Shown piece by piece: positions 6,273 through 33,743 of a stretch of 34,517 nucleotides of DNA (position 1 is its first letter; each line of letters starts with the position of its first letter). The position numbers and the translations under genes are program-made. The DNA is from Armatimonadota bacterium (GTDB lineage Bacteria; Armatimonadota; Zipacnadia; Zipacnadales; VGFC01). The stretch covers positions 1-34,517 of the forward strand of contig VGFC01000001.1 in NCBI GenBank assembly GCA_016869045.1. Direction: 5' to 3'. The notes under the pieces are model-generated. The model had not been told where the DNA came from and ran no database searches. It saw only the letters and a list, made by a program, of their open reading frames with translations.

Positions 6273-8765
6273 GTGAGGCGAGTGGGACCGATTCTGCTGG
6301 CGGCCCTTCTCTGTCCCTCGACAGGCCATGCGCTGGACCTCGTCCGCGGCGGGCAGCCGGTTGCGGTGATCGTGACCGCCGACGCGCCCGCTGCCGAGGA
6401 GAAGGCGGCGGCCGAGGAGCTGGCCCGCTACCTGAAGCAGGCGACGGGCGCGGACCTCGCCATCGTTGCCGAGGCGCAAGCGCCCGCAGGAGCGCAGGTC
6501 CACGTCGGCCACACCGCCGCGGCCAAGGCGCTGGGCATCCCGCCTGAGAAGCTCGACCGCGATGGGATTGTGATGCGGGTCGCGGAGGGGAAGCTGTTCT
6601 TGTGCGGAGGCGATGCGTACGCGACGCAGCTCGCGGTCACGCGCTTCCTGCAGACCCAGTGCGGGTGTCGGTGGTACATCCCGACCGAACTCGGCGAGCA
6701 TGTCCCCCACGCCGACAGCCTCAGCGTCCCCGACACGCTCAATATGACTGAGCAGCCGGGCTTCCTCTCCCGCCTCTGGAGCCGTCCGGCGGACATGGAC
6801 CCGAACTGGCCGCGCAGGAACTACATCCGCAGCCGCTTCAGCTTCCACCACAACCTGCTGAATGTGTTCAAGCCGGAGCTGTTCGACACGCACCCCGAGT
6901 TCTTCCCGCTCATGAACGGCGAGCGCCGGAAGCCGACCGGGCCGGAGGACCACAGCTGGCAGCCCTGCTTCTCGAACCCCGAGACCGCGAAGTACGCGGC
7001 GGAGGTTGCGGCCAAGGCGTTCGACAAGGACCCCTCGCTCGTCAGCTTCTCGATGGGCATCAACGACAGCAACGGGTACTGCCAGTGTGCGGAGTGCGAG
7101 GCGCTCACCGATCCTGAGCACGCGACGTTCCGCGACCGACCGAACCGCTCGAACCAGGTCTTCCGGTTCATGAACAACGTGGCGGAGGAACTCGCGAAGA
7201 CCCATCCCGACAAGTACATCGGTTGCCTGGCGTACTCGTGGTGTGAGGATGTGCCCACGTTCCCCGTCAACGACCATGTAATCCCCTACCTCACGAACGA
7301 CCGCGCGCAGTGGCGCGACCCGGCTTTCCGCGCGCAGGACCAGGAACTCATCCGCCGCTGGTGCGCGGAGCAGCCGATCGTCGGCATCTACGACTACTAC
7401 TACGGCTCCGGGTACGTGATCCCCCGCGTCTTCACGAAGGTCAGCGACGAGAGCCTGAAGTTCGCCTACCGCACGGGTGTGCGCGCGTTCTACGCGGAGA
7501 TCTACGAGAACTGGAGTCTCGACGGCCCGAAGGCGTGGCTCGCCAGCCAACTGCTCTGGAATCCCGCGCAGGACGCGGGGAAGCTGCTCGACGACTGGTA
7601 CGCGGGCATGTTCGCCGAGAGCGCGGGGCCGATGCGCCGCTACTTCGAGCTCTGCGAGAAGCAGTGGATGAGCCAGGGCGGCGACGCACGTTGGTTCAAG
7701 GGCTTCTTCGACATCAGCCAGATGGAGCTGTTCCCGCCCGAGGTGTGCCGGCGCGCGCGGGCCCTGCTCACCGAAGCCGAGCAGCAGGCGAAGAGCGACC
7801 TCGTGAAGCAGCGCGTGGAGCTCTACGGCGAGGGCTTCCACTACACCGAGCTATACTCCGACCTCTACTTCGGCGACAAGACGCTGGCGGGCCTGAAGGT
7901 GAAGACCCGCGCCGACCTGGACAAGGGCCTCGCCGCTGCGCAGCAGGTGAATGCGGCGGGCGCGGAGCTGGAGACCTACTACGCGAACGTGATCCAGGCC
8001 AACCCGCTGCACAAGTCGCCGATACCGTTCGCCGAGCGCGCGCGAGTTGATCTGACCTCGGGGCTGATGAGCTTCCTCTCCGAGGCGATCATCTGGGCCG
8101 ACGAGAACAACCAGTGGCCCGCGGTCGCCGACTTCGTCGCGCAACTAACCGCGAAGGCCGCCGACACGCCGGCCGGTCGCCTGGCGCGCGCGCTGGCCTA
8201 CGTGCACGACCACCCGGACGCGGGTGTCGAGGCGCTGACGAACGGCGGGGTCGAGGAGGCGAAGCCCGACGCGCCGAAGCCCGAGGGGATCGACTGGGCG
8301 AGCGAGGACATGCCCGGCGGCTGGGGCAAGTGGCTCCGGCCCGGCACGCCCGGCGAGCTGGTCTGGACGACGGAGCGCGCGCACACCGGTAAGGCTTCGC
8401 TGAAGGCCAGCGGCGCAACGGCCGCGTGCTTCCTGCAGAGCATCCCCGCGAAGCCCGGCGAGCAGTTCCTTTGCTCGTGCTACGCCATGGGCACCGTGCC
8501 GGAGGGCGCGCTCACCCAACTCGTAGTGCAGTGGCAGGACGCGCAGGGCAGGTGGTTCGAGGCGCCGAAGGCCACCGCCGCGCTTCCGGTCGGCGAGACC
8601 GACGGCTGGCAGCGGCTGCAGACCTTCTTCACCGTGCCGGAGGGCGTCGCCACCGCCGTGGTCTGCCTGGTGACCTATGACCAGGGCGAGAAGGGCAGCG
8701 TCACCTTCGATGACGTCTCGTGCCTGCGCCTCGACATCCCGGCCGCACCCGAAGTGAAGCCATGA
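6273..8765 (+). CDS. secreted DUF4838 protein with GH20-type N-terminal domain and C-terminal carbohydrate-binding-like domain
   Basis: The product is 830 aa. The GTG at 6273 is chosen because a normal signal peptide follows (VRRVGPILLAALLCPSTGHA); the open frame upstream runs into a palindrome. Residues about 25-130 (APAAEEKAAAEELARYLKQA) resemble the non-catalytic N-terminal domain of family 20 glycosidases. Residues about 160-480 are DUF4838, with its hallmark NDSNGYCQCAECEAL (from residue 264), YDYYYGSGYVIPR and GVRAFYAEIYENW. The last 150 residues (GGWGKWLRPGTPGELVW, AHTGKASLKASG) form a jelly roll like CBM4/9. The biochemical function of DUF4838 is not settled; polysaccharide processing is the usual guess. 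Its stop overlaps the permease start (ATGA), so it belongs to the transport operon. Confidence 0.85.
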   Translation: MRRVGPILLAALLCPSTGHALDLVRGGQPVAVIVTADAPAAEEKAAAEELARYLKQATGADLAIVAEAQAPAGAQVHVGHTAAAKALGIPPEKLDRDGIVMRVAEGKLFLCGGDAYATQLAVTRFLQTQCGCRWYIPTELGEHVPHADSLSVPDTLNMTEQPGFLSRLWSRPADMDPNWPRRNYIRSRFSFHHNLLNVFKPELFDTHPEFFPLMNGERRKPTGPEDHSWQPCFSNPETAKYAAEVAAKAFDKDPSLVSFSMGINDSNGYCQCAECEALTDPEHATFRDRPNRSNQVFRFMNNVAEELAKTHPDKYIGCLAYSWCEDVPTFPVNDHVIPYLTNDRAQWRDPAFRAQDQELIRRWCAEQPIVGIYDYYYGSGYVIPRVFTKVSDESLKFAYRTGVRAFYAEIYENWSLDGPKAWLASQLLWNPAQDAGKLLDDWYAGMFAESAGPMRRYFELCEKQWMSQGGDARWFKGFFDISQMELFPPEVCRRARALLTEAEQQAKSDLVKQRVELYGEGFHYTELYSDLYFGDKTLAGLKVKTRADLDKGLAAAQQVNAAGAELETYYANVIQANPLHKSPIPFAERARVDLTSGLMSFLSEAIIWADENNQWPAVADFVAQLTAKAADTPAGRLARALAYVHDHPDAGVEALTNGGVEEAKPDAPKPEGIDWASEDMPGGWGKWLRPGTPGELVWTTERAHTGKASLKASGATAACFLQSIPAKPGEQFLCSCYAMGTVPEGALTQLVVQWQDAQGRWFEAPKATAALPVGETDGWQRLQTFFTVPEGVATAVVCLVTYDQGEKGSVTFDDVSCLRLDIPAAPEVKP

Positions 8766-10801: not shown

Positions 10802-10958
10802 GTGGCACGCGCGGCTCGCGCCGCAAGGTGGCACGCGCGGCTCGTGCCGCAAGGTGGCACGCGCGGCTCGCGCCGCAAGGTGGCACGCGCGGCTCGCGCG
10901 TGAGTGAGGTGGCGAACAAAGGCACCACAGCACCTCACGCGCGAGCCGCGCGTGCCAC
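10802..10958. repeat. 26-bp tandem repeat array plus inverted copy between convergent genes
   Basis: Three 26-bp units starting GTGGCACGCGCGGCTCG (10802, 10828, 10854; one base differs in the second) are followed by a partial fourth (10880-10911), whose reverse complement occurs at 10931-10958. The array fills the gap between the binding-protein gene (+) and the FAD oxidoreductase gene (-). Each unit is internally self-complementary. It may help end transcription from both sides, although no T-run is present. Confidence 0.85.
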
Positions 10959-16531: not shown

Positions 16532-17860
16532 CTAGACCACGGTCTCGGCGACCGGCTCCAGGCGCAGGACCGCCCGCGCCAGCCGATCCGGATCATGCCA
16601 GGCGTAGATGTCGTCCGAGATGAAGTCGCCGCACAGCGGGATGAGACCCAGGCGGCCGACCTCCTCCGCATCGGCGCGCACTATTCGCGCGCCCACCGCC
16701 TCGTACCTGCTCAACACATCCGAACTGGGAACCGCGTCGTTGATCAGGACGTAGTCGAAGATCTTGCCCCCCGCGTGGTCCATCACCGCCCGAACCTGGT
16801 CGGAGGCCTGCACGAGCAGGTCCGTCTCGCGTGGCTGGGTCATCACGTTGCACACGAACACTCGAACTGCGTTGCAGGTGCGCAGGGCTTCGGCTACTCC
16901 CGGCACGAGGACGTTGGGCACGATGCTCGTGTAGGTGCTTCCCGGTCCGATCACGACGATGTCCGCGTTGCGGATCGCCTCGACCGCTTCGGGGAGGGCC
17001 TCCGGCGCCTCCGGGTCGAGGAAGACCTGCTGGATGTCCCGACCCTGAGCGCTGACCTGGGTCTCGCCGCGCACAACGGAGCCATCCTGCAGCCGTGCGC
17101 ACAGCGCGACATGGTCCAGCGTGGCCGGCAGGACGCGCCCGCGAATGGCGAGGACCTTGCTGGTCTCCTTCACCGCCCGCTCGAAGTCCCCCGTAATCGA
17201 CGCCAGCGCCGCGATGAAGAGGTTCCCGAGCGAATGGCCATTGACCGAGGGGACATCCTCAAAGCGATACTGCAGCAGGCGGGCCATGACCGTCTCGTCG
17301 TCGGCCAGGGCAACCAGGCAGCGGCGCACGTCCCCCGGCGGCAGCGTGTCCATCTCGCGGCGCAAGCGCCCCGAGCTACCGCCCTCGTCCGAGACGGCGG
17401 CGATGGCCGTGATGTCGTTGATGTAGTGCTTCAGCCCGCGCAGGAGGTTCGACAAGCCCGTGCCGCCGCCGATGGCCACCACGGACGGGCCGTGCGCCCG
17501 CTCCCGGTCGGCCAGCAGCACATCGACCAGCGCCCGGTTCTCGCGAACGCGCAGGGGCTCCGCGATCGAGTGCACGATCTGCGCCAGCGACAGCACCACC
17601 GCACATAGCCCGCCCGCGATGAGCGCGACCCCGATCAGTACCGAGACTTGCGTCGCCAGATCGGGCCCCACCACCTGGCTCACCACATCGAGGACCTCGA
17701 CCATCGCCCCCAGCCCGACGGCGAAGGCGGCACCGAAAGCGACCGCCACCAGACCCAGCAGCAATAGCAGCACCCACCGCTTCACGCGCAGGCCCGGGTA
17801 GAACCAGCGCAGGAAGCGCGGCAGGCGTTGCCACTTGCTGCGACCCCTCTTGGTCGGCAC
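16532..17860 (-). CDS. yvcK: YvcK/CofD-like gluconeogenesis factor with N-terminal membrane anchor
   Basis: The product is 442 aa from GTG 17860 with AGGGTGA upstream. Two hydrophobic segments (about 27-52 and 70-95) anchor a C-terminal YvcK domain (about 120-435): VVAIGGGTGLSNLLRGLKHY, AAVSDEGGSSGRLRREMDTL followed by PPGDVRRCLVALA, NGHSLGNLFIAAL, VVIGPGSTYTSIVPNVLVPG and VMTQPRETD are all family landmarks. YvcK proteins bind UDP-sugars in Bacillus and Mycobacterium and affect gluconeogenic growth and cell-wall precursor supply. Bacillus YvcK lacks the membrane part; forms with an N-terminal anchor occur in other lineages. Its place at the head of the gap-pgk-tpiA block supports a role in central carbon control. 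The leader carries a terminator (17878-17901). Confidence 0.9.
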   Translation of the reverse strand: MPTKRGRSKWQRLPRFLRWFYPGLRVKRWVLLLLLGLVAVAFGAAFAVGLGAMVEVLDVVSQVVGPDLATQVSVLIGVALIAGGLCAVVLSLAQIVHSIAEPLRVRENRALVDVLLADRERAHGPSVVAIGGGTGLSNLLRGLKHYINDITAIAAVSDEGGSSGRLRREMDTLPPGDVRRCLVALADDETVMARLLQYRFEDVPSVNGHSLGNLFIAALASITGDFERAVKETSKVLAIRGRVLPATLDHVALCARLQDGSVVRGETQVSAQGRDIQQVFLDPEAPEALPEAVEAIRNADIVVIGPGSTYTSIVPNVLVPGVAEALRTCNAVRVFVCNVMTQPRETDLLVQASDQVRAVMDHAGGKIFDYVLINDAVPSSDVLSRYEAVGARIVRADAEEVGRLGLIPLCGDFISDDIYAWHDPDRLARAVLRLEPVAETVV

Positions 17861-21143: not shown

Positions 21144-23092
21144 GAGGGCGTGTGAGAAGCACGGCATCGGGCGTGATGAATCACGCCCCTACACCTGGGC
21201 ACGATGAATCGTGCCCCTACATGACGGCGATCTGCCGTCGTTGGGGGCGTAGGGGCGCGATTCATCGCGCCCAATCGTGTAGCGGGCGCCATTCATGGCG
21301 CCCCCCCGCGCTGCTCATCGTCGCGGTCATCTGCTTCGCCGCCACCACCGGTGCGCAGGACTACCGGTTCAGCGTGCCCGAGATGCTGCTGGATGTGTAC
21401 GTGAACCCGGATGCGTCCGTCACGCTCGACTACACGATCACCTTCCAGTGCAGCCTCGGCGCCCACCCGATCGACATCGTGGACATGGGGCTTCCCGACC
21501 GGGACTATGACATCGGGAACATGACTGCCTCGATCAACGACGTCCCCCTCTCCGGCATCCGCAAGTCCACCGCGATCGACTGCGGCGTCGAGGTGCCGCT
21601 CGGCGCGAGCCAGATCCAGCCCGGGCAGAGCGGGGTCTTTCGCTTCAAGGCCACCATGCCCAACCGCGTCTACCAGGACACGACGCGCAGGGATCTCGCC
21701 TCGCTGTGGATCACGCCCACCTGGTGGGGCCCGCAGTATGTTCAGGGCACGGGGAAGATCGCCGTGGTCGTCTACCTTCCCGGGGCGATCAAGCCCGACG
21801 AGGTCCTGCACCAGGGCCGCAACTTCACGCTCAAGGGAACGAAGGGGTCGCAGACCATCGTTGCCTGGCTCCTGGAAAACGAGCGCGCGGACAGCCCGCG
21901 CAAGTTCGCGCTGTCCTTCCCGAAGCGCACGATGGCGCGCGTCGTTCGGCAGACCGTCTGGGGCCTGGCCCTCAAATGGTGGCGCGAGAACCCTGGGGCG
22001 CGCCTCATCTGGGCGGTCGTGCTGTTCATCCTGTACGGAATCGCCTTCTTCCGCGCCAGCAAGGGGACGGGCGTCAGCGCCTTCATCTTCCTGGTGATCG
22101 GCCTGAGCGTCTGCTTCGTCCTGTGGCCCGTGTTCGAGCTGTTCGCGCTTCCGCTCCTCATCCCCATCTGGATCCTCGCCGAAAAGGGCCTCCGCAGGCG
22201 CAGCGGACGCTACCTGCCGGCCATCGTCTCCGTCGAGGCCGGTGGCATCAAGCGCGGCCTGTCCGCCCCCGAGGCGGCGATCCTCCTGGAACTGCCGCTG
22301 GGCCGCGTGCTGACGCTGATCATCTTCGGCCTGCTGAAGAAGAGCATCGTCAAGCAACTCGAAGCCGACCCCCTTGAGGTGCAGGTGGCTCCCGAGTACG
22401 CGGGTCTGGCGCGGAAGGACCGCCAGGCGAAGGCGCGGGCTCTCGGGACGGTCATCCACGCCTACGAGCAGCCGTTCCTCGAGGAGATCGAAGCTCACCC
22501 GGGCCATCCGCTCAACCGAATCGACTTCGGCAAGCCGATGAAGGCTGCCGTCGAGACCACAGCCAAGCGCCTGAAGGGCTTCGACGTCGAACGCACGCGC
22601 AGCTACTACCGCTACATCGTGAGCCGCGCGTGGGCCGAGGCCAAGGCCATCGGGGACGTCGAGAAGCGAACCGAGTACACCGACGACAACCTGCTGTGGC
22701 TGCTGGCGGCGGACCGCGGCTACGATGACTTCGGCTACTGGCACTCCCACGGGTATGACTACCATCCGCCTTGGGGCCGCCCGACGCCCGGCGGCATCCC
22801 GACGCCCAGCTCCGCGGGAGGCCGGACGAGCTTGGCCGACGTCTCGCGCTCGTTCGCGGGTTGGGCCGAGGGCGTGACGGGCGGCCTCGCCGGCAAGATG
22901 GACCCGGTCTCCGTCGGTCTGAAGACCGGCGGGCTGGTCAACCTGTCCGGCGTGGACAAGGTCACCGTGGATGTGCTCGAATCCCTCGCCTCCAGCAGCG
23001 GCTCGGGTGGCGGCGGAGGCGGGGGCGGCGGCTGTGCGTGCGCCTGCGCCGGGTGTGCGTGCGCCTGCGCGTGCGCGGGAGGCGGGAGGTAG
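21140..23092 (+). CDS. DUF2207-type membrane protein with poly-Gly and CACACAGC Cys-rich tail
   Basis: The product is 650 aa from ATG 21140, which overlaps the preceding stop (ATGA); an internal ATG near 21221 is an alternative start. The signal-like hydrophobic segment (ALLIVAVICFAATTGA, about 57-72) is preceded by about 46 residues encoded by palindromic repeats. An extracytoplasmic DUF2207-like domain (about 75-270) is followed by three hydrophobic helices (about 286-350) with basic loops (FFRASKG, KGLRRRSGR) that put the C-terminus in the cytoplasm, then a winged-helix-like segment (LSAPEAAILLELPLGRVLTL). The end is SSSGSG, nine glycines, and CACACAGCACACACAGGGR, with seven cysteines at 632, 634, 636, 639, 641, 643 and 645. 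Gly-rich ends are common in DUF2207 proteins; the alternating Cys/Ala tail beside radical SAM genes marks it as a probable modification substrate. Confidence 0.8.
   Translation: MRGRVRSTASGVMNHAPTPGHDESCPYMTAICRRWGRRGAIHRAQSCSGRHSWRPPALLIVAVICFAATTGAQDYRFSVPEMLLDVYVNPDASVTLDYTITFQCSLGAHPIDIVDMGLPDRDYDIGNMTASINDVPLSGIRKSTAIDCGVEVPLGASQIQPGQSGVFRFKATMPNRVYQDTTRRDLASLWITPTWWGPQYVQGTGKIAVVVYLPGAIKPDEVLHQGRNFTLKGTKGSQTIVAWLLENERADSPRKFALSFPKRTMARVVRQTVWGLALKWWRENPGARLIWAVVLFILYGIAFFRASKGTGVSAFIFLVIGLSVCFVLWPVFELFALPLLIPIWILAEKGLRRRSGRYLPAIVSVEAGGIKRGLSAPEAAILLELPLGRVLTLIIFGLLKKSIVKQLEADPLEVQVAPEYAGLARKDRQAKARALGTVIHAYEQPFLEEIEAHPGHPLNRIDFGKPMKAAVETTAKRLKGFDVERTRSYYRYIVSRAWAEAKAIGDVEKRTEYTDDNLLWLLAADRGYDDFGYWHSHGYDYHPPWGRPTPGGIPTPSSAGGRTSLADVSRSFAGWAEGVTGGLAGKMDPVSVGLKTGGLVNLSGVDKVTVDVLESLASSSGSGGGGGGGGGCACACAGCACACACAGGGR
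21169..21303. repeat. cluster of four palindromic elements inside the 5' end of the DUF2207 gene
   Basis: Four 20-bp palindromes: GGGCGTGATGAATCACGCCC (21169-21188), GGGCACGATGAATCGTGCCC (21197-21216), GGGCGCGATTCATCGCGCCC (21253-21272) and GGGCGCCATTCATGGCGCCC (21284-21303). The first two carry CTAC on the right and the last two carry GTAG on the left, so the block is arranged head to head. The third and fourth form the composite unit also found at 26338 and 33181. The reading frame from 21140 stays open through all of it. Confidence 0.85.
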
Positions 23093-26311: not shown

Positions 26312-26337
26312 GGCGGCGATCTGCACTCGTTTGTAAC

Positions 26338-26391
26338 GTAGGGGCGCGATTCATCGCGCCCGATCGTGTAGGGGCGCCATTCATGGCGCCC
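26338..26391. repeat. 54-bp composite palindromic element between secD and secF
   Basis: GTAG plus GGGCGCGATTCATCGCGCCC (26338-26361), a 6-bp joint, then GTAG plus GGGCGCCATTCATGGCGCCC (26368-26391). The two palindromes start 30 bp apart. The same pair, with the same spacing, occurs at 21249-21303 and 33181-33234. Confidence 0.9.
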
Positions 26392-31898: not shown

Positions 31899-33743
31899 TT
31901 ACGGTGGCGGCTCACCTGCGCGGACGTCCCGCGCCGGCCTCGGCTCGCTGCGCAGGATGAGAGCGCGGTCGGTCTGGCCGATGGTCGTGACCATGCCGTG
32001 GGCGGCGGCCTCGAACTCCGGCCAGAAGCGCCGGCGGCAGATGATGACGGCCGTCGGGCCGGGCGTCAGCACGCTCTCCGCATCTTCCATGCGGTAGACC
32101 CGGCCCCTGAGTCGGCCGGCATTCCCCGGGAACTCGTACTCCGCCGGCGCATTGCCGAACACCGCCACTCGGTCGTCCAGGTAGAACACGGTCCCCCGCG
32201 AGAGCTGGCGGATCGAGAAGATGCGCTCGCCCGGCTTGCGCAGTTCGGCGACCTTCTGCGCGAGGGCCTTGTCGGAGGGGAAACGCGGGTCGCGACCTGC
32301 AGACCAGAGCAGCACGTGATACGACGCCAGCAGCGAGATCGCCAGCAGCGCGACCGCCCACTTGCGGGCGCGCAGGATCGCCGCCGCGATCACCTCCAGG
32401 CCGGCCAGCGCCCAGATCAACGCGACCGGCTTCACCGCCACCGGGAGCGACTGCCCCAGCTTCACGAACACGACGGCCGCCGCCACACCAATGAGCAGGA
32501 TCCCCGTCCCGACTGCCGCCCACAGGCCGCGCTTGCGGGCCGGCGAGACATACCGCCCAATCAGCAGCGCAATCGGCGGGAGACAGGGCAGGATGTAGGT
32601 CTCCACTTTCACCTTCGAGAGGCTGAAGAGCACGAGCGGAACCGCGACCCACACCAGCCAGAGAATGCAGGCGCGCCGCTGCGGCTCCTCGCCATGCCGT
32701 CGCCCCCCAAAGCCGTCGGTGACGGCTCCCGGGAGGAACAGCGTCCACGGCCAGCAGGCCCCCAACAGGACCGGCCCGAGGTACCACCACGCTTGCTGGT
32801 GCGCCGCGTCGATCTCGCCCGTCACCCGCGCGACGTTCTCGTGCAGCAGGAAGAAGCGGATCGCCCCCGGGTTCGCATGCTCGCAGAGCGCGAACCAGGG
32901 CACGATGATCACCGCCAGAATGCCCAGCACCGCCAGCCACGGCACCTGCAGCAGGGCGCTCAGGCGCCGGGTCAATCCGAGATAGGGAACCATGACGAAG
33001 ACCGGAAGGACCAGCGCAATCGGCCCCTTCACCAGCACACCTAGCCCTGCCGCCGCGGCCGCCAGGCAGTAGTACCCTCGCCCCCCACCGCCGTATCTGG
33101 CGGCGCGATCCCGCCCCCCACCGTCTCCCCCGCCGTATGTAGGGGCGCGATCCCGCCCCCCACCGTCTCCCCCGCCGTATGTAGGGGCGCGATTCATCGC
33201 GCCCGACCGTGTAGGGGCGCCATTCATGGCGCCCGTCCCCTCTCGCCCTCCCTCCGATCCCAACCACGCCCACCAGATCGTCGCCGTGACCGCCAACGTC
33301 AGCAGCATGTCGTAGCGGATCACCCGCCCGACCGCGAACCACAGGACGCTCGTGGCGAGCACCGCCGCCGCCGCGATCCCCGCGTGGTGGCCGAAGACGT
33401 GTCGTCCGAAGGCGTAGGTCAGGGCGACGCCGGCCGCCGCCGCCAGCAGGGAGGACAGCCGGACCGCGAACTCGTGTGGCCCGAAGAGGCCGATGCTCAG
33501 GGCGGTGAGCCAGTGCAGCAGGGGCGGCTTGTCCAGGTAAGCGAAGCCGTTGAGGCGAGGTGTGACGAAGTCGCCGCTAGCCCACATCGCCTGCCCGACG
33601 GCCGCGTAGCGCGCTTCATCGGGCTCCACCAGCCCCGGCGAGCTCAACCGCAGACCGCACACCGCGACGGTCAGCACGAACACGGCCACTGTCGCCAGCG
33701 GGGGCGACCAGCGGTCAGTCTGGGCGGCCCGTTTGTGCGACAA
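31899..33743 (-). CDS. ArnT-like (GT39/GT83) membrane glycosyltransferase carrying an in-frame repeat insertion
   Basis: The product is 614 aa from a TTG at 33743 with GGAGGGGGA just upstream. Family landmarks: VEPDEARYAAVGQAMWASGD in the first periplasmic loop (Glu/Asp needed for catalysis), GFAYLDKPPLLHWLTAL, and in the second half KVKVETYILPCLPPIALLIG. About a dozen hydrophobic helices are present. Such enzymes transfer a sugar from a polyprenyl-phosphate donor to lipid A or another envelope acceptor. Residues about 168-222, between two helices, are encoded by palindromic and 42-bp tandem repeats (GAMNGAPTRSGAMNRAPTY, then GGGDGGGRDRAPTY and GGGDGGGRDRAARY). The rest of the family lacks this insert. 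The frame stays open, so the protein may tolerate it in the loop. It lies between the UPF0104 and hydrolase genes. Confidence 0.88.
   Translation of the reverse strand: MSHKRAAQTDRWSPPLATVAVFVLTVAVCGLRLSSPGLVEPDEARYAAVGQAMWASGDFVTPRLNGFAYLDKPPLLHWLTALSIGLFGPHEFAVRLSSLLAAAAGVALTYAFGRHVFGHHAGIAAAAVLATSVLWFAVGRVIRYDMLLTLAVTATIWWAWLGSEGGREGTGAMNGAPTRSGAMNRAPTYGGGDGGGRDRAPTYGGGDGGGRDRAARYGGGGRGYYCLAAAAAGLGVLVKGPIALVLPVFVMVPYLGLTRRLSALLQVPWLAVLGILAVIIVPWFALCEHANPGAIRFFLLHENVARVTGEIDAAHQQAWWYLGPVLLGACWPWTLFLPGAVTDGFGGRRHGEEPQRRACILWLVWVAVPLVLFSLSKVKVETYILPCLPPIALLIGRYVSPARKRGLWAAVGTGILLIGVAAAVVFVKLGQSLPVAVKPVALIWALAGLEVIAAAILRARKWAVALLAISLLASYHVLLWSAGRDPRFPSDKALAQKVAELRKPGERIFSIRQLSRGTVFYLDDRVAVFGNAPAEYEFPGNAGRLRGRVYRMEDAESVLTPGPTAVIICRRRFWPEFEAAAHGMVTTIGQTDRALILRSEPRPARDVRAGEPPP
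33093..33234. repeat. 42-bp tandem repeats plus composite palindrome inside the ArnT-like gene
   Basis: Two 42-bp units (33093-33134 and 33135-33176, differing near the left end) and the start of a third run straight into the 54-bp composite palindrome (33181-33204 and 33211-33234). The unit length of 14 codons and the total keep the minus-strand frame open. The tandem unit itself begins like the palindrome (GTAGGGGCGCGAT) and then departs from it, as if derived from a damaged copy. Confidence 0.9.

Follow-up and report, generated by a model that had tools for sequence, protein, structure and literature searches.

A head-to-tail dimer of GTAG-tagged REP palindromes in frame within an ArnT-like glycosyltransferase gene of an Armatimonadota bacterium

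The window analysed here, a stretch of 34,517 bp of contig VGFC01000001.1, comes from an Armatimonadota MAG of 7.87 Mb in 723 contigs. It carries, on its minus strand, a glycosyltransferase gene that contains a segment of palindromic and tandemly repeated DNA, and palindromes of the same kind occur at other places in the window:

31902..33743, minus strand: ArnT/PMT_2-like GT-C glycosyltransferase gene with the insert (ORF of 614 codons, i.e. 614 aa; stop at 31899-31901)
~33084..33239, minus strand: inserted segment of 156 bp = 52 codons, residues ~169-220 (BLASTP gap and codon alignment against the homologue L009)
33088..33193, no strand: 42-bp tandem array, 2.5 copies (TRF, 95% matches; direct repeats)
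33181..33204, plus strand: GTAG REP unit with stem type A, GTAGGGGCGCGATTCATCGCGCCC, translated GAMNRAPT (exact match to the genome-wide family; hairpin)
33211..33234, plus strand: GTAG REP unit with stem type B, GTAGGGGCGCCATTCATGGCGCCC, translated GAMNGAPT (matches in the window; stem typing; hairpin)
26337..26391, plus strand: REP dimer A-30-B between coding stretches of differing frames, itself not in frame
21169..21272, no strand: inverted REP cluster, C and D types on minus, A type on plus
10802-10899: 26-bp tandem repeat, 3.8 copies, 97% matches

The initial annotation had held that the frame is kept and that family motifs continue normally past the repeats, and this is borne out: the 614 codons are uninterrupted, the motifs are present on both sides of the insert, and the two flanks score positive for codon usage in one common frame. 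The protein matches Pfam PMT_2 over residues 71-162 (E 7e-17), and its insert-free homologue L009 aligns with the solved ArnT structure 5ezm (E 1e-30) over ~350 residues; ArnT (5ezm, 5f15) has only a short loop at the place where the host protein has its 52 additional residues. An AlphaFold model of the host protein, built from a two-sequence alignment, reached a mean pLDDT of 40 and was therefore not used to place the insert in three dimensions. The corresponding loop of ArnT comes after the helix that follows a catalytic aspartate on the periplasmic side, so the loop with the insert is most likely exposed to the cytoplasm, at a distance from the active site.

An insert of about 140 bp and some 55 residues had been proposed; the insert is real, but it measures 156 bp and 52 residues, slightly longer than the 142 bp first delimited. 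It adds the residues GAMNGAPTRSGAMNRAPTYGGGDGGGRDRAPTYGGGDGGGRDRAARYGGG plus a few at its edges, which are ambiguous by a few codons. The two REP units lie head-to-tail, 30 bp apart, and differ by a compensated stem change; both fold as 8-bp hairpins (DNA, -11.1 kcal/mol for A and -10.9 for B), with z-scores of -4.6 and -4.7, respectively, and no shuffle as good. As read from the sequence, two of the three frames of a REP are free of stops in either orientation, and the dimer spacing of 30 bp puts both units in a single frame. Palindromic and tandem repeats are both present, as first described, but the tandem part is mostly a local 42-bp amplification starting from half a REP and not a separate element: each 42-bp unit joins the first half (13 bases) of REP A (GTAGGGGCGCGAT) to GC-rich DNA, and the distal part of the unit had no other occurrence in the genome loci examined for it. 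Since 42 bp equal 14 codons, the copy number is neutral with respect to frame; the number itself is uncertain in a MAG, the array being about as long as a short read.

The palindromes belong to a large family, of a repeat type that is common in bacteria. Within the window there are seven matches against none expected from shuffles, and the 24-base unit, with up to three mismatches, has 741 copies in the genome as against none for the reversed control. Array statistics come from 2.76 Mb of the 7.87 Mb, some contigs having been sampled because they bear REPs, and the counts do not include five contigs that had been picked for protein similarity. This sample holds 346 units in 134 arrays, of which 333 units start with an unpaired GTAG; the unit is a short palindrome with an 8-bp stem and the loop TTCA (taking a stem of 6-13 bp and a loop of a few bases as the criterion). 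Most copies in the first 1.57 Mb fall into four stem types (89 A, 56 B, 44 C and 24 D), each perfectly self-complementary. All eight stem pairs are intact in 305 of the 346 units, and 194 of those 305 carry at least one two-sided change. In a set of hand-picked distinct units, covariation amounts to 0.411 compared with 0.156 after shuffling, a value reached by none of 500 shuffles; among 14 distinct units, every one of the 112 pair cells is paired, and four of the eight pairs show two-sided changes. The family is under palindromic constraint.

Adjacent units form 174 head-to-tail and 38 inverted pairs. The former are mostly 28 or 30 bp apart (163 pairs), and 27 of the latter are spaced at 52 bp and build four-unit B-A-D-C clusters (L053 3624-3757; L059 13514-13647; L083 7102-7235) inside a longer, MITE-like composite of ~200 bp with its own terminal inverted repeats, AGAGCGTGTATGAGAAG / CTTCTCATACACGCTCT. 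Across genomes the unit is patchy: it occurs in 19 of 201 (the source genome and relatives), reaching another family of the phylum, with 332 copies in the genome G055 and only 17 in the sister species.

Comparison with relatives provides the empty site. The closest homologue, L009 from the same genus (55% identity), lacks exactly these 52 residues while retaining strong similarity on both sides, so that the proposed check, an alignment to homologues for a clean insertion point, upholds an in-frame insertion of palindromic repeats between two predicted helices of the ArnT-like protein; because the sister protein is just 55% identical, the exact insertion point and any target duplication are not resolvable beyond those few codons. 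The sole homologue retrieved by a contig search, from 'Armatimonadetes bacterium isolate K_DeepCast_150m_m2_147', is a protein identical to that of the same-genus genome G001. The host protein has a match in 28 of the 61 genomes searched, and alignments with matches on both sides are interrupted at this very point. A single sister cannot polarise the direction of change, and an ancestral repeat loop lost by the relatives would also leave such a pattern; we regard this as exceedingly improbable, given that no relative with two-sided matches, from the same genus to the same phylum, has the extra residues, that no REP-coded loop was seen in distant homologues, and that the insert consists of a genome-wide repeat family.

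The ArnT-like gene is not the only host. We scanned the sample with a codon-usage model trained on the genome, counting an array as in frame when both its flanks were coding in the same open frame. This holds for six of the 108 REP arrays with full flanks versus 1765 of 3000 random points (59%; p 4e-31), a roughly tenfold avoidance of genes by REPs, which is what the purging of most intragenic insertions would produce. The further in-frame cases, including two found by similarity, are the following:

L053: GH2 glycosidase with an in-frame dimer, immediately ahead of where the Glyco_hydro_2 domain match begins
L095: host of no known family with an in-frame dimer
L081: large protein with a weak MG2 match and an in-frame dimer
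L112: PMT_2-like membrane protein with an in-frame dimer
L152: DnaE2-like polymerase III alpha with an in-frame dimer translated VGAPFMAPNYVGARFIAP
L115: RAYT with an in-frame dimer
L113: nucleotidyltransferase-like gene with a REP (found by similarity)
L116: spermidine synthase-like gene with a REP (found by similarity)

The naming of L152 as DnaE2-like is our reading of its domains and resemblance. Two candidates were set aside: at L149, one of the six counted by the scan, the REP precedes the probable start of a signal peptide, and in the tRNA-guanine transglycosylase gene L094 the N-terminal REP may be upstream of the true start.

For three of these genes, as for the host gene, the sister genome has an empty site. 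Identity is 75-79% for the GH2 gene and 71-72% for L095. In the DnaE2-like gene (83% and 74%), 45 query residues stand against 11 in the sister, and the match with 83% identity breaks at residues 869/915. Four genes with empty sites bear on whether the glycosyltransferase gene is a decaying pseudogene or its repeat an assembly error. The data are from a MAG only, repeats assemble badly, and the 42-bp copies are 95% identical, all of which could be taken in favour of such an artefact; we nevertheless deem it quite improbable in view of the open frame with its motifs and codon signal on both flanks, of the unit length of 42 bp, with which changes in copy number preserve the frame, and of the same dimer lying in frame in the other genes with empty sites.

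A candidate mover is also encoded in the genome. L115 (7194-7889, contig C303) is a RAYT gene with an NHVH (HUH) motif and has REP arrays on both sides, at 7175-7226 and 7904-7983; it is the only RAYT found with these REPs flanking it. Among the other Y1_Tnp genes (8 of the 10 found by Pfam, viewed with up to ~1.5 kb on each side), none had REPs nearby. The reading frame of this RAYT itself contains a REP dimer, situated in the variable linker that follows the HUH motif; this copy was considered as a clean insertion and rejected, since in a paralogue an unrelated linker of similar length occupies the site. Further near-copies lie at C303:120-428 and C539:59-421. Some in-frame REP sites are flanked by direct repeats of 6-12 bp, which are not expected from a Y1 transposase; the direct similarity of flanks averages 12.2 versus 10.9 for permuted pairs, a difference to which local composition may contribute, and the repeats may be due to chance in GC-rich DNA. 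REPs have been proposed to be moved by RAYTs (PMC3733652, PMC8266576), and the L115 protein could be the mover of the present family.

Of the seven intragenic cases in the codon scan, six are read in the same frame (GAMN.APT), and the 30-bp spacing, a multiple of three, is common to all. This preference is suggestive, being based on few cases, two of them on contigs selected by similarity to this very frame. Together with the RNA of the host-gene strand, which folds better than its shuffles (z -3.9), it invites the idea that the insert was retained for use, the peptide or the RNA hairpins serving as a flexible tether, as a translation pause for membrane insertion or in mRNA stabilisation. We consider this unlikely: the host proteins are unrelated, REP arrays are strongly depleted from genes, the RAYT paralogue has an unrelated linker at the REP position, and any REP should give a well-folded RNA.

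By far the most probable history, in our judgement, is an insertion of a REP dimer into the ArnT-like gene, presumably by a RAYT, followed by partial tandem duplication and tolerated in a cytoplasmic loop. The GTAG REP would be a mobile palindrome that is not autonomous and presumably depends on a RAYT (Y1/HUH) transposase to move it in the form of a single-stranded hairpin; a head-to-tail dimer would have entered the glycosyltransferase gene, and part of it would then have been tandemly duplicated in 42-bp units via slippage or recombination. Most insertions into genes would be lost, the few that persist being multiples of three, free of stops and situated in a loop. Here the loop would be a short one between two membrane helices, most likely on the cytoplasmic side, opposite the active site. 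As the insert is a multiple of three, stop-free and located in a helix-helix loop, the enzyme can probably accommodate it, and it escaped removal by selection; the peptide would then be expressed, the enzyme would have kept its activity, and the insert may be nearly neutral.

The host L113 led to a second palindrome, unrelated to the REP, with a typical copy, GGGAATTCGGGGACACGATCCCAATTCGATACGACCGAATTGGGTCATGTCCCCGAATTCCC, of 62 bp forming one long hairpin. The sample contains 40 full copies, and 37 of them, outside the contigs chosen by similarity and none at a contig edge, could be set against the REP arrays: 13 of the 37 lie open and in frame within coding sequence, with several frames and either orientation represented, compared with the 6 of 108 given above (p 3e-5). 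Their hosts include a pyruvate formate-lyase-like enzyme, a DUF58 protein, a GH2 protein, an amidohydrolase and an alpha-L-fucosidase, and relatives lack ~21 residues at the site in the DUF58 protein and ~23-26 in the lyase. With up to two mismatches, the arm has 102 matches in the genome and four in the sister. It fits GGGGWSAS, the motif given for terminal repeats of other tyrosine transposases (PMC3733652); no transposase was tied to it in this analysis. Example copies of GGGGACACGATCCCAATTCG...CGAATTGGGTCATGTCCCC are:

L124 16702-16747
L113 4659-4704
L069 4896-4942
L161 2377-2423 and 3037-3083

The outer arms vary between copies and yet are complementary within each (L124 16691-16760 among others), with pairs such as GGGAATTC/GAATTCCC, CAAATC/GATTTG and GGGCTTGG/CCAAGCCC, as might result from copying or correction of the hairpin itself. 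Also at L124, upstream of the DUF58 gene (~17322-17455), residues 7-50 of the open frame recur at ~100 genomic positions, on either strand, which hints at a third family of palindromes.

The initial annotation had named the Rickettsia palindromic elements (RPEs) as the known example of translated palindromes and proposed an independent case in another phylum. The likeness holds, palindromes being inserted in frame in unrelated genes here, in an Armatimonadota host, as in Rickettsia (Ogata 2002; Claverie and Ogata 2003, via PMC3733652); as the precedent, however, Rickettsia does not stand alone, for GTAG REPs inside ORFs were already reported in 2013. In the account of Di Nocera, De Gregorio and Rocco (PMC3733652), GTAG REPs occur in Proteobacteria, Cyanobacteria, Chloroflexi and PVC, a phylum list in which Armatimonadota does not figure; in-frame intragenic copies are most numerous in Opitutus terrae (Verrucomicrobiota), often as dimers; some REP clusters, in Thauera and R. 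conorii, encode 43-82 residues, and DnaE2 is one of the hosts. All the testable features of GTAG-tagged REPs described there are present here: the GTAG tag, a short stem and loop with compensated stems, high and mostly extragenic copy number, a REP-flanked RAYT, and in-frame copies of ~20-80 residues, including in DnaE2-type genes; the comparison with the 24 consensus families of that paper covers these described features. RPE-4 and RPE-6 are of the CGTC class and RPE-1 is longer (PMC3733652), whereas the present REP has the tag GTAG, so that it works like an RPE and yet is none; it also resides, mostly extragenically, in a large, non-reduced genome. With REPINs and BIMEs it shares clusters of REP units linked to RAYTs, but REPINs pair inverted units while the dimer inserted here is head-to-tail, though inverted four-unit clusters also exist. 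The second palindrome looks more RPE-like than the REP family.

As translated REPs have already been reported in other bacteria, we see here a well-documented case in a new phylum, not a new phenomenon. What this case adds is the phylum, a family dominated by head-to-tail dimers, empty sites for four genes and a second family alongside the first. We found no earlier report of intragenic REPs in Armatimonadota in the literature; the empty sites in the sister species show that REP palindromes become part of protein-coding frames in this phylum as well. It is conceivable, if somewhat doubtful, that this genome is a large-genome counterpart of Rickettsia, in which at least two unrelated palindrome families regularly end up in genes as translated insertions, the ~62-bp one in 13 of 37 sampled copies. 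Forms compatible with coding (units of a dimer ten codons apart, a single preferred frame) would then have been favoured, and mobile palindromes would be a regular source of new protein loops. Loop creation by mobile palindromes has so far been studied mostly in the obligate intracellular Rickettsia, and with two in-frame palindrome families in one genome this bacterium would be a good place to measure the rate at which tolerated loops are created.
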